From positions 186,001-250,000 of the forward strand of contig NZ_JAUXOD010000051.1 of the NCBI RefSeq assembly GCF_030682515.1: a DNA stretch of 64,000 nucleotides, given 5' to 3'. Shown piece after piece: positions 5,476-27,284 of the stretch (position 1 is its first letter; each line of letters begins with the position of its first letter). The notes below the pieces were generated by a model. It searched no databases, was not told the DNA's origin, and saw only the letters and a program-made list of their open reading frames with translations. Source of the stretch: Hoeflea sp. Its GTDB lineage: Bacteria > Pseudomonadota > Alphaproteobacteria > Rhizobiales > Rhizobiaceae. Position numbers and translations under genes: made by a program.

Positions 5476-6642
5476 ATGAAAAAAGTCTTGAATACATGTA
5501 CGGCGATGGCATTGGCGCTTTCGGTCATGGCGCCGGGAATGGCGTCAGCCGAAATGATCACGGAAGTCGGTCCCGGCGAAGGCCAGGTCAATATTGTCGC
5601 CTGGCCGGGCTACATAGAGCGCGGCGAGACCGTGAAGGAATTCGACTGGGTGACCAAGTTCGAGGAGTCCTCGGGCTGCAAGGTCAACGTCAAGACCGCC
5701 AACACATCCGACGAGATGGTGGCGCTGATGAACGAAGGCGGGTTCGACCTGGTCACCGCTTCGGGCGACGCCTCACTCCGGCTGATCGCCGGCAAGCGCG
5801 TGCAGCCGGTCAATGTCGACCTGGTTCCGAGCTGGCCTGAGGTGGACGACCGCCTGAAGAACGCTCCCTGGCACACGGTCGACGGCGTGCATTACGGGAT
5901 TCCCTACATGTGGGGCCCGAACGTACTGATGTACAACACCGAAACCTTCAAGGACGCTGCGCCAACATCGTGGAACGTCGTGTTCGAGGAAATGGATCTG
6001 CCGGACGGCAAGACCAACAAGGGCCGCGTGCAGGCCTATGATGGACCGATCCACATCGCCGACGCCGCGCTCTATCTGATGACGCACAAGCCCGAGCTCG
6101 GCATCAAGAGCCCCTATGAACTCAATGAAGCCCAGTACAAGGAAGCGCTCGATCTGCTGCGCGTGCAGCGGACTCTGGTCGGCCGCTACTGGCACGACGC
6201 CTTCATCCAGATCGACGACTTCAAGAACGAAGGCGTTGTAGCGTCTGGAACCTGGCCGTTCCAGGTCAATCTGCTCAAGGGCGACAACCAGCCTGTGGCC
6301 TCGGTGTTTCCGGAAGAAGGCGTGACAGGCTGGGCCGACACCACCATGATGCATGTCGATGCGGCCAATCCGAACTGCTCCTACATGTGGATGGAACACA
6401 CGCTGTCATCCAACCTGCCGAGCGACCTCGGCGTCTGGTTCGGCGCCAATCCGCCGGTCCCCGCCGCCTGCACGGACGGACGCGGCATGATGACAGCGGA
6501 AACCTGCACCAACAACGGCTTCGACAATTTCGAGAAGGTCCGCTTTTGGACCACGCCCGTGACCCAGTGCGAAAGCCAGGGTGAGTGCGTGCCCTACTAT
6601 CGCTGGGTCTCGGACTATATCGGCGTCATCGGCGGACGTTGA
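5476..6642 (+). CDS. ABC transporter substrate-binding protein, spermidine/putrescine type (PotD/YdcS-like)
   Basis: Signal peptide MKKVLNTCTAMALALSVMAPGMASA; NIVAWPGYIERGETVKEFDWVTKFEESSGCKVNVK; upstream of PotABC-type genes. Confidence 0.88.
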   Translation: MKKVLNTCTAMALALSVMAPGMASAEMITEVGPGEGQVNIVAWPGYIERGETVKEFDWVTKFEESSGCKVNVKTANTSDEMVALMNEGGFDLVTASGDASLRLIAGKRVQPVNVDLVPSWPEVDDRLKNAPWHTVDGVHYGIPYMWGPNVLMYNTETFKDAAPTSWNVVFEEMDLPDGKTNKGRVQAYDGPIHIADAALYLMTHKPELGIKSPYELNEAQYKEALDLLRVQRTLVGRYWHDAFIQIDDFKNEGVVASGTWPFQVNLLKGDNQPVASVFPEEGVTGWADTTMMHVDAANPNCSYMWMEHTLSSNLPSDLGVWFGANPPVPAACTDGRGMMTAETCTNNGFDNFEKVRFWTTPVTQCESQGECVPYYRWVSDYIGVIGGR

Positions 6643-12833: not shown

Positions 12834-12906
12834 GCTCTCGTGCCGCTGACAGGCGGTCCGGAGGGCGTCCCGTCATCCCCCTTCAGCTTTCGCGCCCGCA
12901 GCCCCT

Positions 12907-12947
12907 GAAAAACAAAGCGCCTGCCGGGTCAGACCCGACAGGCGCTT
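12907..12947 (-). terminator. Intrinsic terminator of the candidate sRNA
   Basis: AAGCGCCTGTCGGGT-CTG-ACCCGGCAGGCGCTT stem with one internal G-T position (12915-12947), then TGTTTTT on the minus strand. Confidence 0.85.
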
Positions 12948-13056
12948 GTACTTCGTCGTGACTTCCAAACCGGTGCTTGGGAGGAGGATCCCGGTGCAGA
13001 GTGTCCCGACTACTGCCATGCCGAACTGGGAGGAGGAGGTGTTCGACGTGGCGTTG
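12907..13056 (-). ncRNA. Probable alpha-r14 / suhB / cuckoo-type trans-acting sRNA with anti-Shine-Dalgarno motifs
   Basis: Minus strand reads CACCTCCTCCTCCCAGTTCGGCATGGCAGTAGTCGGGACACTCTGCACCGGGATCCTCCTCCCAAGCACCGG...GCGCCTGTCGGGTCTGACCCGGCAGGCGCTTTGTTTTT. Two CCTCCTCCC motifs (12979-12987 and 13028-13039) and a strong intrinsic terminator in a non-coding gap. The 5' end is estimated from a weak TTGCAA-N16-CCATAT promoter. Confidence 0.75.
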
Positions 13057-13211
13057 AAAGAGATATGGTACAGTTGATGCTGCATTGCAATAGGATATTT
13101 CAAGAATCTTTATCTTTTGGTAAATTCGCTCAAACCACTGTAACTTTAGGTGTTTTGGCTTTGAACTAGTTTTCCTCGGAGGGCTCTCATGGGCAAAAAT
13201 GCGGCACCGCA

Positions 13212-13243
13212 ACAAAAAAACCGGGGCCCATGACCCCGGTTTG
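13212..13243 (-). terminator. Intrinsic terminator of the xylose-type ABC operon
   Basis: Minus strand AACCGGGG-TCATGGG-CCCCGGTTTTTTT. Confidence 0.9.
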
Positions 13244-15435: not shown

Positions 15436-16470
15436 TTAGTTACAGGGAGCCGGGCCTGCGGTGACGCCCTGGCACAGGGCTTCCTTGCTGATCCAGCCGG
15501 CATCGACGACGGTCGCCAGATTGTCCTTGGTGATCGGAACCGGAGCCAGGAACATGGCGGTCATCGTGGTGCCGCCGGGCGACGTCCACTCGACGGTGCC
15601 TTCGACAGCCGACATGGCGGTGCCGTCAGCCAACTGGGCGGCGATTTCGCCGGCAGCCTTGCCGAGCGCGCGGGCGTCCTTCCAGACGCTGACGGTCTGG
15701 GTGCCATTGGCAACGCGGTTGAGCGCAGCGTGGTCGCCATCCTGGCCGGAGACCGGGATGCCTTCCATGCCCTGGCCCGTCAGCGCCGCGACGACGCCGC
15801 CGGCGGTGCCGTCATTGGACGCAACCACCGCATCGACCTTGTTGTCGGCTGCGGTCAGGATCTGTTCCATGTTGCGCTGGGCATTGGCCGGAAGCCAGCC
15901 GTCGGTGTAGGCCTCGCCAACGATCTTGATGTCGCCGGAATCGATCGCTGCCTGCAGGATTTCCTGCTGGCCGCCGCGAAGGAAGTCGGCGTTCGGATCG
16001 GTCGGCGATCCCTTGATCATCACATAGTTGCCCTTGGGCGCGGCGGCAAAGACGGCGCGTGCCTGCATGCGGCCGACTTCGACGTTGTCGAAGGTCAGAT
16101 AGAAGGCGCGGCTGTCTTCGATCAGACGGTCATAGGCGATGACCGGAATGCCTTCATCGGCGGCAGCGGTCACGGCCGGGATCACCGCCTGGGTGTCCTG
16201 GGCGAGAATGATCAGGGCGTTGACGCCCTGGGCCATCAGGCTTTCCACATCGGAGAGCTGCTTGGCGGCGGACGACTGCGCGTCGGTCGACACATAGGTG
16301 TCGCCAGCGGCTTCGATCGCTGCCTTCATTGCGGCTTCATCGGTCTTCCACCGCTCTTCCTGGAAGTTCGACCATGAGACACCAATGATCTTACCTTCCG
16401 CCATCGCGGCGCCGGCCATTGCAGCAGTCATGACGACGCCAGCAACGAGCGTGCTAACTAACTTTTTCAT
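15436..16470 (-). CDS. xylF: Sugar ABC transporter substrate-binding protein (XylF-like)
   Basis: MKKLVSTLVAGVVMTAAMAGAAMAEGKIIGVSWSNFQEERWKTDEAAMKAAIEAAGDTYVSTDAQSSAAKQLSDVE. Confidence 0.85.
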   Translation of the reverse strand: MKKLVSTLVAGVVMTAAMAGAAMAEGKIIGVSWSNFQEERWKTDEAAMKAAIEAAGDTYVSTDAQSSAAKQLSDVESLMAQGVNALIILAQDTQAVIPAVTAAADEGIPVIAYDRLIEDSRAFYLTFDNVEVGRMQARAVFAAAPKGNYVMIKGSPTDPNADFLRGGQQEILQAAIDSGDIKIVGEAYTDGWLPANAQRNMEQILTAADNKVDAVVASNDGTAGGVVAALTGQGMEGIPVSGQDGDHAALNRVANGTQTVSVWKDARALGKAAGEIAAQLADGTAMSAVEGTVEWTSPGGTTMTAMFLAPVPITKDNLATVVDAGWISKEALCQGVTAGPAPCN

Positions 16471-16614
16471 GTAATCCTCCCGGGTGCATAATCACACATG
16501 CCCGGCATTCAACAGCCGGACAAGCCTCTGAAGCCTATTAATTCAAGCCTCAAAAAAAATCGTGACTCAAAAGCGCTTGCATGTCAACATGAAACGCAGT
16601 TGTGACAAGTTACC

Positions 16615-16640
16615 GCAATGCAACAATAATTTTGCATTGC
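16615..16640. promoter_or_regulatory. Inverted repeat, candidate ROK-regulator operator in the divergent xylF/ROK region
   Basis: GCAATGCAA-CAATAATT-TTGCATTGC, perfect 9-bp arms, 31 nt before the ROK start codon. Confidence 0.5.
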
Positions 16641-16670
16641 ACCCGGATTGTGAGGAGGCATCCCGGGACC

Positions 16671-17897
16671 ATGACCCTAATCCTTCGCTCAGATGACATG
16701 CGAAGACGCAACCGGCTGCGCATCATCCAGATCGTGCGGCGCGGAGGCGAGATCAGCCGTGGGGAAATCGCCCAGGCGGCCGCGCTCAGCCCGGCCACCG
16801 TGTCGACGATCTCGAGCGAACTGATCGCCGAAGGCGTCCTCATCGCCCGCAGTGCCGAAACCGGCGGCAACGCAGGACGCGGCCGGCCAAGCGCCGGGCT
16901 GTCGGTCAATCCGCAGTTCCGTCATGCGGTCCTCATCATTCTCAAGATCGGCGCGGTCAACGTCGCCATCGTCGATTATGCCGGCACGGTGATCGCCCGC
17001 CAGCAGTTCGACCTCGACATGGCCAATGTCACCATGGAGGCTTTCAGGGTCACACTGATCACCGAGATCCGCCAGACCTGGGATGCCTCCGGCCTTGCCG
17101 CAGAGCAGCTCGGCCGCATTTCGATCGGCGTCCAGGGCACGACCGACATTGCCGGGCTGAAGCTGCTGCGCTCGCCGATGACGCCGCTCACCGACATCCC
17201 GCTGGCCTCATGGCTGGAAACGGAATTCGGCGTGCCGGTGCGGCTGGCCAATGACTGCGACCTGATCGCCCGGGCTCTGAACTGGCGCGATCCGGAGCGC
17301 TACAGCGACAATTTCGCCGCCATCCTGCTCGCCCACGGCGTCGGCATGGGCCTGTTCCTGCGCGGCCAGATCATCAACGGGACGCGCTCGTCGGGAACGG
17401 AGTTCGGCCACATGCTGCACCAGACCGGCGGCGCCCTGTGCCGCTGCGGATCGAACGGATGCATCGAGGCCGACGCGGGCGATTACGCCATCATGCGCCG
17501 CTTCAGCGGCAAACCCGTGAGCGCCAAGCCGCAAAGCCATGTCGAGCCGCGCGAGATCTCCGACATTGCCGAGGCCGCCCGCTCGGGCGACAGACTTGCC
17601 CGCGACACCTTCGCCTCCGCGGGCCGGGCGCTCGGATCCGGCCTTGCAGGAATCTTCGCGCTGGTGGATCCTTTCAGGGTCGCCTTCGTCGGTCACGGCG
17701 CGGCGGCCTTCGACCTGATGGAGCCGGCGTTGCGGGAGGTTCTCAAGAACTCGAACGCGTCCGCCGCCAGCAACATCCCGATTGATCTCTATGTCGACGA
17801 GATCCCGCTGGTGTTCGAGGGCTGCGGCATTGACGCCCTGTCGGAGATCGACGCGACGCAGGCCGACCGGGTCGGCGAATCCATGAGGAACGCATGA
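16671..17897 (+). CDS. ROK-family transcriptional regulator (XylR/NagC type)
   Basis: N-terminal wHTH (NRLRIIQIVRRGGEISRGEIAQAAALSPATVSTISSELIAEG); zinc motif CRCGSNGCIE. Confidence 0.9.
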   Translation: MTLILRSDDMRRRNRLRIIQIVRRGGEISRGEIAQAAALSPATVSTISSELIAEGVLIARSAETGGNAGRGRPSAGLSVNPQFRHAVLIILKIGAVNVAIVDYAGTVIARQQFDLDMANVTMEAFRVTLITEIRQTWDASGLAAEQLGRISIGVQGTTDIAGLKLLRSPMTPLTDIPLASWLETEFGVPVRLANDCDLIARALNWRDPERYSDNFAAILLAHGVGMGLFLRGQIINGTRSSGTEFGHMLHQTGGALCRCGSNGCIEADAGDYAIMRRFSGKPVSAKPQSHVEPREISDIAEAARSGDRLARDTFASAGRALGSGLAGIFALVDPFRVAFVGHGAAAFDLMEPALREVLKNSNASAASNIPIDLYVDEIPLVFEGCGIDALSEIDATQADRVGESMRNA

Positions 17898-23827: not shown

Positions 23828-24913
<1,086 letters not shown>

Positions 24914-26045: not shown

Positions 26046-27284
26046 ATGAAACTCTTGAAAACGGCGCTGCTCGGATCAGCGGCGGCTGCCATCATGGCCA
26101 GCTCCGCACTGGCCCAGGCGCGTGTTGTGAAATATTATGCCGATTTCGATCCTGCGCCGCTCGCAGCCTTCGAAGCGGTGATCGCCGATTTCGAAGCCGC
26201 CAACCCGGACATCGACATCGTGCTGCAGAACTTCGACCACGAAGGCTACAAGACCTCGATCCGCAACTTCCTGTCGGCGGATTCACCCGACCTTGCCAAC
26301 TGGTACGCCGGCAACCGCATGGCGCCCTTCGTCAATGCGGGCCAGTTCATGGATATCTCCGACGTCTGGACCGACAACAACCTCGGCGAGACGCTGGCTT
26401 CTGCCGAGGGCTCGATGACCATCGACGGCAAGCAGTGGGGCGTGCCCTACACCTATTACCAGTGGGGCATCTACTACAACAAGGACGCCTACAAGCAGGC
26501 CGGCGTCGAAGTGCCCACGACCTGGGCCGAGTTCATCGACAATTGCGCCAAGTTCAAGGAAGCGGGCATCGACTGCGTGACCACCGGCACCAAGGCGCTG
26601 TGGCCCGGAGCCGGTATCTTCGACTACATGAACCTGCGCACCAACGGCTATGATTTCCACATGGAACTCACCGCCGGCAAGGTGGCCTGGACCGACGACC
26701 GGGTGAAGAACACCTTTGCGGAATGGGCCAAGCTCGTCGAACCCGGCTATGTCACCGCCAATCACGCGGCCATTGACTGGCAGGATGCGGCTGCGCTCCT
26801 GGTGCAGGGCAAGGCTGCGAACTATGTCATGGGCAACTTCGCCGTGGCCGTGTTCAAGGACGGCGGCATGACCAACGACACGCTGGGCTTCATGGTGTTC
26901 CCGGAAATCACGCCCGGAATCCCGCGCGGCGAGGAAGCACCGACCGACACGATCCACATCCCGGCCGGCGCGAAGAATGTCGAGGACGCCAAGAAGTTCC
27001 TGGCCTACATCGCAACGGCCGACGTGCAGACCAAGCTCAACGAGGCGCTTGGCCAGTTGCCGGTCAACAACCAGTCCAAGGTCGGCGACGATCCGTTCCT
27101 GCAGGCAGGCTTCGAGATGCTCTCGACGGCTGACGGCGGCATCGCCCAGTTCTTCGACCGGGATGCTCCCGCCGAAATGGCCAAGATCGGCATGGAAGGC
27201 TTCCAGGAGTTCATGGTCAAGCCGGGCAATGTCGATGCGATCCTCGATCGCCTGGAGAAGGCGCGCCAGCGCATCTACAAGTAA
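26046..27284 (+). CDS. Sugar ABC transporter substrate-binding protein (CUT1 family)
   Basis: Signal peptide MKLLKTALLGSAAAAIMASSALAQA; GVPYTYYQWGIYYNKDAYKQAGVEVPTTWAEFID. Confidence 0.92.
   Translation: MKLLKTALLGSAAAAIMASSALAQARVVKYYADFDPAPLAAFEAVIADFEAANPDIDIVLQNFDHEGYKTSIRNFLSADSPDLANWYAGNRMAPFVNAGQFMDISDVWTDNNLGETLASAEGSMTIDGKQWGVPYTYYQWGIYYNKDAYKQAGVEVPTTWAEFIDNCAKFKEAGIDCVTTGTKALWPGAGIFDYMNLRTNGYDFHMELTAGKVAWTDDRVKNTFAEWAKLVEPGYVTANHAAIDWQDAAALLVQGKAANYVMGNFAVAVFKDGGMTNDTLGFMVFPEITPGIPRGEEAPTDTIHIPAGAKNVEDAKKFLAYIATADVQTKLNEALGQLPVNNQSKVGDDPFLQAGFEMLSTADGGIAQFFDRDAPAEMAKIGMEGFQEFMVKPGNVDAILDRLEKARQRIYK

Follow-up and report, generated by a model that had tools for sequence, protein, structure and literature searches.

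An αr14-like anti-Shine-Dalgarno sRNA gene of Hoeflea with a predicted PhaR operator in its promoter, and similar boxes upstream of αr14 genes in Rhizobiaceae

The window, the whole 64-kb stretch of Hoeflea sp. DNA that was analysed, carries between a sugar-ABC operon and a LysR gene an αr14-like anti-Shine-Dalgarno (anti-SD) sRNA gene on the minus strand (12907..13055). This gene is indicated by alignment to Rfam αr14, fold, conservation and covariation, and both ends of its ~149-nt transcript are predicted. Folded alone, the RNA forms three hairpins with an energy of -67.3 kcal/mol (z = -5.2). Hairpin 1 (13015..13052, minus strand) holds CCUCCUCCUCCC in its loop, and five of its ten pairs are changed on both sides. 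Hairpin 2 (12955..13010, minus strand), which rests on fold and covariation, has a two-part stem and GAUCCUCCUCCCAAGC in the loop. The third hairpin (12915..12947, minus strand) is an intrinsic terminator of 15 pairs with a T tract after it; it is kept in 17/17 orthologs, and its loop lacks an anti-SD motif. The two copies of the anti-SD motif CCUCCUCCC (13028..13036 and 12979..12987, both on the minus strand), recognised from sequence and fold, are unpaired and lie entirely within the loops of hairpins 1 and 2. The initial annotation had noted two motifs about 50 nt apart on this strand, and the spacing is indeed 49 nt; the strong GCGCCTGTCGGGT/ACCCGGCAGGCGC hairpin with a T tract that it described corresponds to the terminator stem (12947-12915), and the motifs fall in loops, as its reading supposed. 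The sequence CCTCCTCCC occurs only twice in the 64-kb window, both times at the sRNA locus (0.63 expected by chance); this count is weak evidence and not significant by itself, since 13 of 100 shuffles reach two or more.

Of the 18 Hoeflea genomes, 17 have the sRNA locus; its loops are invariant among them and its stems covary. The hairpin 2 loop CCGGGATCCTCCTCCCAAGCACCGG is identical in all 17 orthologs, the invariance spanning 25 bases, and the terminator loop is as bare of an anti-SD motif in 17/17 orthologs as in the window copy. When the structure was followed across the 17 species, paired cells amounted to 98.3%, compared with 93.4 in shuffles, and 13 pairs had both sides changed, compared with 4.7 (0/500 shuffles were as high). 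A covariance model built from the Hoeflea copies gives 53-60 bits on the Pseudohoeflea copies at the same site and also finds αr14 loci in other Rhizobiaceae, with lower scores. The same-site copies in Pseudohoeflea and relatives (L041, L043 and L044) keep the three hairpins and have degenerate anti-SD loops, e.g. CUCUCCCCCCUCC; the promoter box described below is absent from these copies.

The initial annotation had placed the RNA in the αr14/suhB/cuckoo group, and the αr14 part of that assignment is the part that stands. In a permissive search, Rfam αr14 (RF02344) aligns over the full length of the locus (12912-13057, minus strand, model positions 1-123) with 40.1 bits and E = 6e-6, and the motif loops and the terminator fit the group. 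This score is below the αr14 gathering score of 58.8 bits, at which the Rfam search of the window returned no matches, and suhB (RF00519) had no match at the sRNA locus, so that it was ruled out as the family. As in αr14, the loops are conserved and the stems variable but pairing. However, αr14 RNAs are described as three hairpins each with an unpaired CCUCCUCCC (PMC10746234), whereas here the motif is found in two of the three loops; a bare terminator loop also occurs at some other family loci (L132 and L140). We name the RNA αr14-like rather than αr14 because of its score below gathering and its motif-free third loop, and the sequence supports a divergent, genus-level αr14-like paralog rather than a strict member. 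The canonical αr14 of the same genome (L001, G000:C23:2839-2966, minus strand) scores 101.9 bits and lies directly downstream of a DUF1127 ORF.

Three known systems invite comparison. With αr14/NfeR1 (Smr14C2, SmelC397) the window sRNA shares CCUCCUCCC in loops, hypervariable stems, its own terminator and occurrence in Rhizobiaceae; it differs in having two motif loops instead of three, a bare terminator loop, a length of ~149 nt versus 123, and a genus-level locus downstream of a LysR gene. αr14 RNAs are described as Hfq-independent and as silencing substrate-binding-protein (SBP) mRNAs through the anti-SD loops; for the window sRNA such pairing is predicted in silico, and it should work like αr14. 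MmgR (αr8, related to suhB RF00519) is likewise an anti-SD sRNA, with a PhaR-bound promoter in Sinorhizobium meliloti (PMC12542648). It is a different RNA, of ~77 nt with a single short anti-SD stretch (PMC7143759), and the window locus has no suhB match. Finally, CcsR-like sRNAs are frequently linked to short DUF1127 genes (PMC10253847), as are CcsR1-4/cuckoo RNAs of Rhodobacter (CIN1 loci), an arrangement shared by the canonical Hoeflea αr14 with its DUF1127 partner. The window copy, in contrast, has no adjoining DUF1127 gene, and transcription of CcsR starts from an RpoHI/RpoHII promoter. For the window locus, a reading of its CTTG/CCATAT elements as an RpoH promoter was rejected, the spacing being wrong by eye. 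The gene itself would on these grounds be a variant of the known αr14 type, and the putative PhaR link described next the new, testable part.

Upstream of the sRNA we predict a sigma70-type promoter, ATTGCA-N17-CCATAT (13063..13091, minus strand), in which CATAT is present in 17/17 orthologs and the TTGCA stretch is nearly invariant. This is a reading by eye, as the promoter was not among the calls of the automatic sigma70 scan. Overlapping its -35 region is a predicted operator of PhaR (AniA), the repressor that senses PHB, with the sequence TCCTATTGCAATGCAGCATCA (13075..13095, minus strand). The matrix used was built from 16 EMSA-confirmed sites that PhaR binds efficiently in S. meliloti, the source species being S. 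meliloti and not Hoeflea, and with it this box scores 17.8 bits, the best in the 64-kb window, compared with a maximum of 17.4 bits in 20 simulated 64-kb sequences. The box fits the S. meliloti PhaR consensus WNWDDNYGCRNYGCRNHHWNW (PMC12542648) at 20 of 21 positions. It stands at the same position in 17/17 Hoeflea orthologs (13.9-22.4 bits), all with the YGCRNYGCR core, to which the observed substitutions keep. The stretch TATTGCAATGCAGCAT, directly before the -10-like CCATAT, is the most conserved outside the RNA. This PhaR-type box, which the initial annotation did not contain, is the most informative feature of the locus.

Ranks two to four in the window also fall in this neighbourhood, and the fifth box scores 12.5 bits. 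A second, less conserved PhaR-like box (13197..13217, minus strand, 17.75 bits) lies just past the sugar-operon terminator, at a distance of ~145 nt upstream of the sRNA; among the orthologs examined, about three in four have it, at 12.5-19 bits. A tandem pair (16608..16647, strand unassigned, 17.7 and 17.3 bits) lies between the sugar SBP gene (16470, minus strand) and a divergent ROK regulator gene on the plus strand; at least one box is present there in 4/16 other Hoeflea, close relatives only.

The genome of the window contains a phaR gene. In S. meliloti, PhaR binds the promoters of phasin, depolymerase and mmgR (PMC12542648), and the corresponding Hoeflea sites serve as positive controls for the matrix: in the same genome it gives 27.2 bits at the phasin gene, 26.6 bits at the PHB depolymerase gene, and 26.0 bits at the promoter of a suhB-type locus with mmgR features (L024, G000:C86:100349-100419, plus strand, TTTCCTCCCT), probably the mmgR ortholog. 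The canonical DUF1127-αr14 pair L001 has a 20-bit PhaR-type box, TGATATTGCACTGCACAAATC, upstream, beside a CTATAT element.

Boxes of this type are widespread at αr14 loci. Of the 151 Rhizobiaceae genomes sampled, 143 have αr14 sRNAs, plant symbionts and pathogens among them. We scored the 400 nt upstream of αr14 in two samples (57 loci, then 40 others), removed redundant loci, sorted the rest by presence of phaR and took at least 15 bits as a box. A box occurs within 400 nt upstream at 63 of 90 αr14 loci of Rhizobiaceae with phaR, compared with 1/90 for control windows 800-1200 nt upstream, and scrambled matrices gave a mean of 0.47 loci and a maximum of 31. Among the loci lacking a box, many come second or third in a tandem series, and the distance from box to αr14 varies among loci (-24 to -345). 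In genomes in which phaR was not detected (nine genomes and one more of the same genus), a box was found at 0/30 αr14 loci; the difference is significant by locus (Fisher 8e-13) and by genus (47/61 versus 0/7, p = 1e-4), the genomes with no detected phaR representing seven genera only, several being small, and their scored regions having a GC content of 0.44 versus 0.55. Their αr14 promoters (L194, L195, L210, L212-L214 and L217) have another motif in common, TGCATnnCnGCnATGCA, perhaps the mark of a different regulator. The PhaR study in S. meliloti names mmgR as an sRNA target (PMC12542648), and our literature search turned up no paper that mentions both PhaR and NfeR1 or reports a PhaR-αr14 link. 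We think it reasonably likely that, across Rhizobiaceae, the αr14 anti-SD sRNAs make up a conserved branch of the PhaR/PHB regulon, often as DUF1127-αr14 units, that couples stored carbon to broad silencing of uptake and whose operators were lost where phaR was lost.

NfeR1 (αr14) uses its anti-SD loops to pair at the start region and silence SBP mRNAs and ntrB (PMC10746234). Among the ATG-start genes of the window, with automatically assigned starts, the strongest loop pairings are predicted for an SBP gene at 26046, an ABC ATPase at 24913, the ROK regulator at 16671 and the sugar SBP at 16470. The last, a Peripla_BP_4 gene by Pfam (15436..16470, minus strand), is a candidate target with the ribosome-binding site CCGGGAGGAUUACAUG and a loop pairing of -14.5 kcal/mol. 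GGGAGG is present in the ribosome-binding site of this gene in 15/15 Hoeflea orthologs, several of which carry CUUGGGAGGA, whose complementarity to loop 2 spans ten bases. Of the SBP genes that the initial annotation had proposed as targets, good pairing with the loops is predicted for those at 26046 and 16470, and weak pairing for the one at 5476. The choice of target is weakly constrained, because any strong Shine-Dalgarno sequence matches anti-SD loops.

Most likely, the loops of the sRNA would block the translation of mRNAs related to uptake by base-pairing with their G-rich ribosome-binding sites, beginning with the mRNA of the SBP gene in the adjacent sugar-ABC operon. The box over the -35 region is most likely a PhaR operator, through which PhaR would repress the sRNA when no PHB is present. 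PhaR leaves the DNA as PHB accumulates (PMC12542648), from which we infer that PHB accumulation would titrate PhaR onto the granules and derepress the sRNA, so that a full carbon store would lower nutrient import. Taken together, we consider it probable that the locus is an independent αr14-like sRNA gene with two unpaired CCUCCUCCC motifs, a PhaR operator over the -35 element and a role in PHB-dependent silencing of uptake. If so, PhaR operators before most αr14 genes would link the sensing of stored carbon to the control of transporters at the level of translation, and two PHB-linked families of anti-SD sRNAs, MmgR and αr14, would be joined under one repressor.

The main alternative accepts the αr14-type anti-SD sRNA and assigns the box to a LysR-type activator (LsrB) or to NtrC, leaving PhaR uninvolved. 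The description of NfeR1, the only αr14 promoter dissected, has LsrB as activator, acting through TGCA-N6-GCAT at -72 to -60, and NtrC as repressor, and does not mention PhaR (PMC10746234); the window box contains TGCA-N5-GCAT, similar enough to be confused with that motif; another regulator with a similar palindrome would also be compatible with the sequence. However, the box overlaps the predicted -35 element, a repressor position, scores as a PhaR palindrome, and is of the type found at the phasin and depolymerase genes of the same genome, while αr14 genes lack it where phaR is undetected. Moreover, some αr14 promoters have the PhaR-type box side by side with a separate motif, TGCATNGGTGC, perhaps the LsrB box, which makes the two distinguishable; with this separate motif found elsewhere, the S. 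meliloti-type LsrB motif was rejected as an identity for the window box. Control by LsrB or NtrC in place of PhaR is on balance unlikely.

Since the sRNA lies on the same strand as the sugar-ABC operon and directly downstream of it, it could also derive from the transcript of that operon, as a 3'-UTR product or a read-through tail with no promoter of its own. This origin is disfavoured because the operon ends in a separate terminator (13242-13218) and a conserved promoter follows: between that terminator and the sRNA stand the -10-like CATAT and the -35-region box, kept in 17/17 orthologs. In H. marina (L042 and L274), moreover, the SBP gene lies at another distance although the sRNA and the promoter box are retained, and we hold such an origin to be very improbable. 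That the locus encodes a small protein, by ORF 12873-13103 or 12883-13215, is suggested only by frames that are open in the window and its closest relatives. Both frames are spurious, as the initial annotation suspected, because stops or indels interrupt them in many orthologs, and changes among orthologs track base pairing, not codons; peptide coding was rejected and has next to no likelihood.

Further PhaR-type boxes were observed. At L123 (G000:C83:50906-50948), two close boxes of 22.6 and 14.8 bits sit between ORFs that by eye resemble a HAD-type sugar phosphatase and a GNAT acetyltransferase, and at L126 (G000:C91:13322) a 15.5-bit box lies between ORFs resembling, again by eye, a sugar-ABC binding protein and a LacI regulator. 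In many other Rhizobiaceae (L047-L111), tandem PhaR boxes accompany a phasin-like gene that lies nearby, ~0.8-3 kb beyond the LysR gene adjoining the sRNA.
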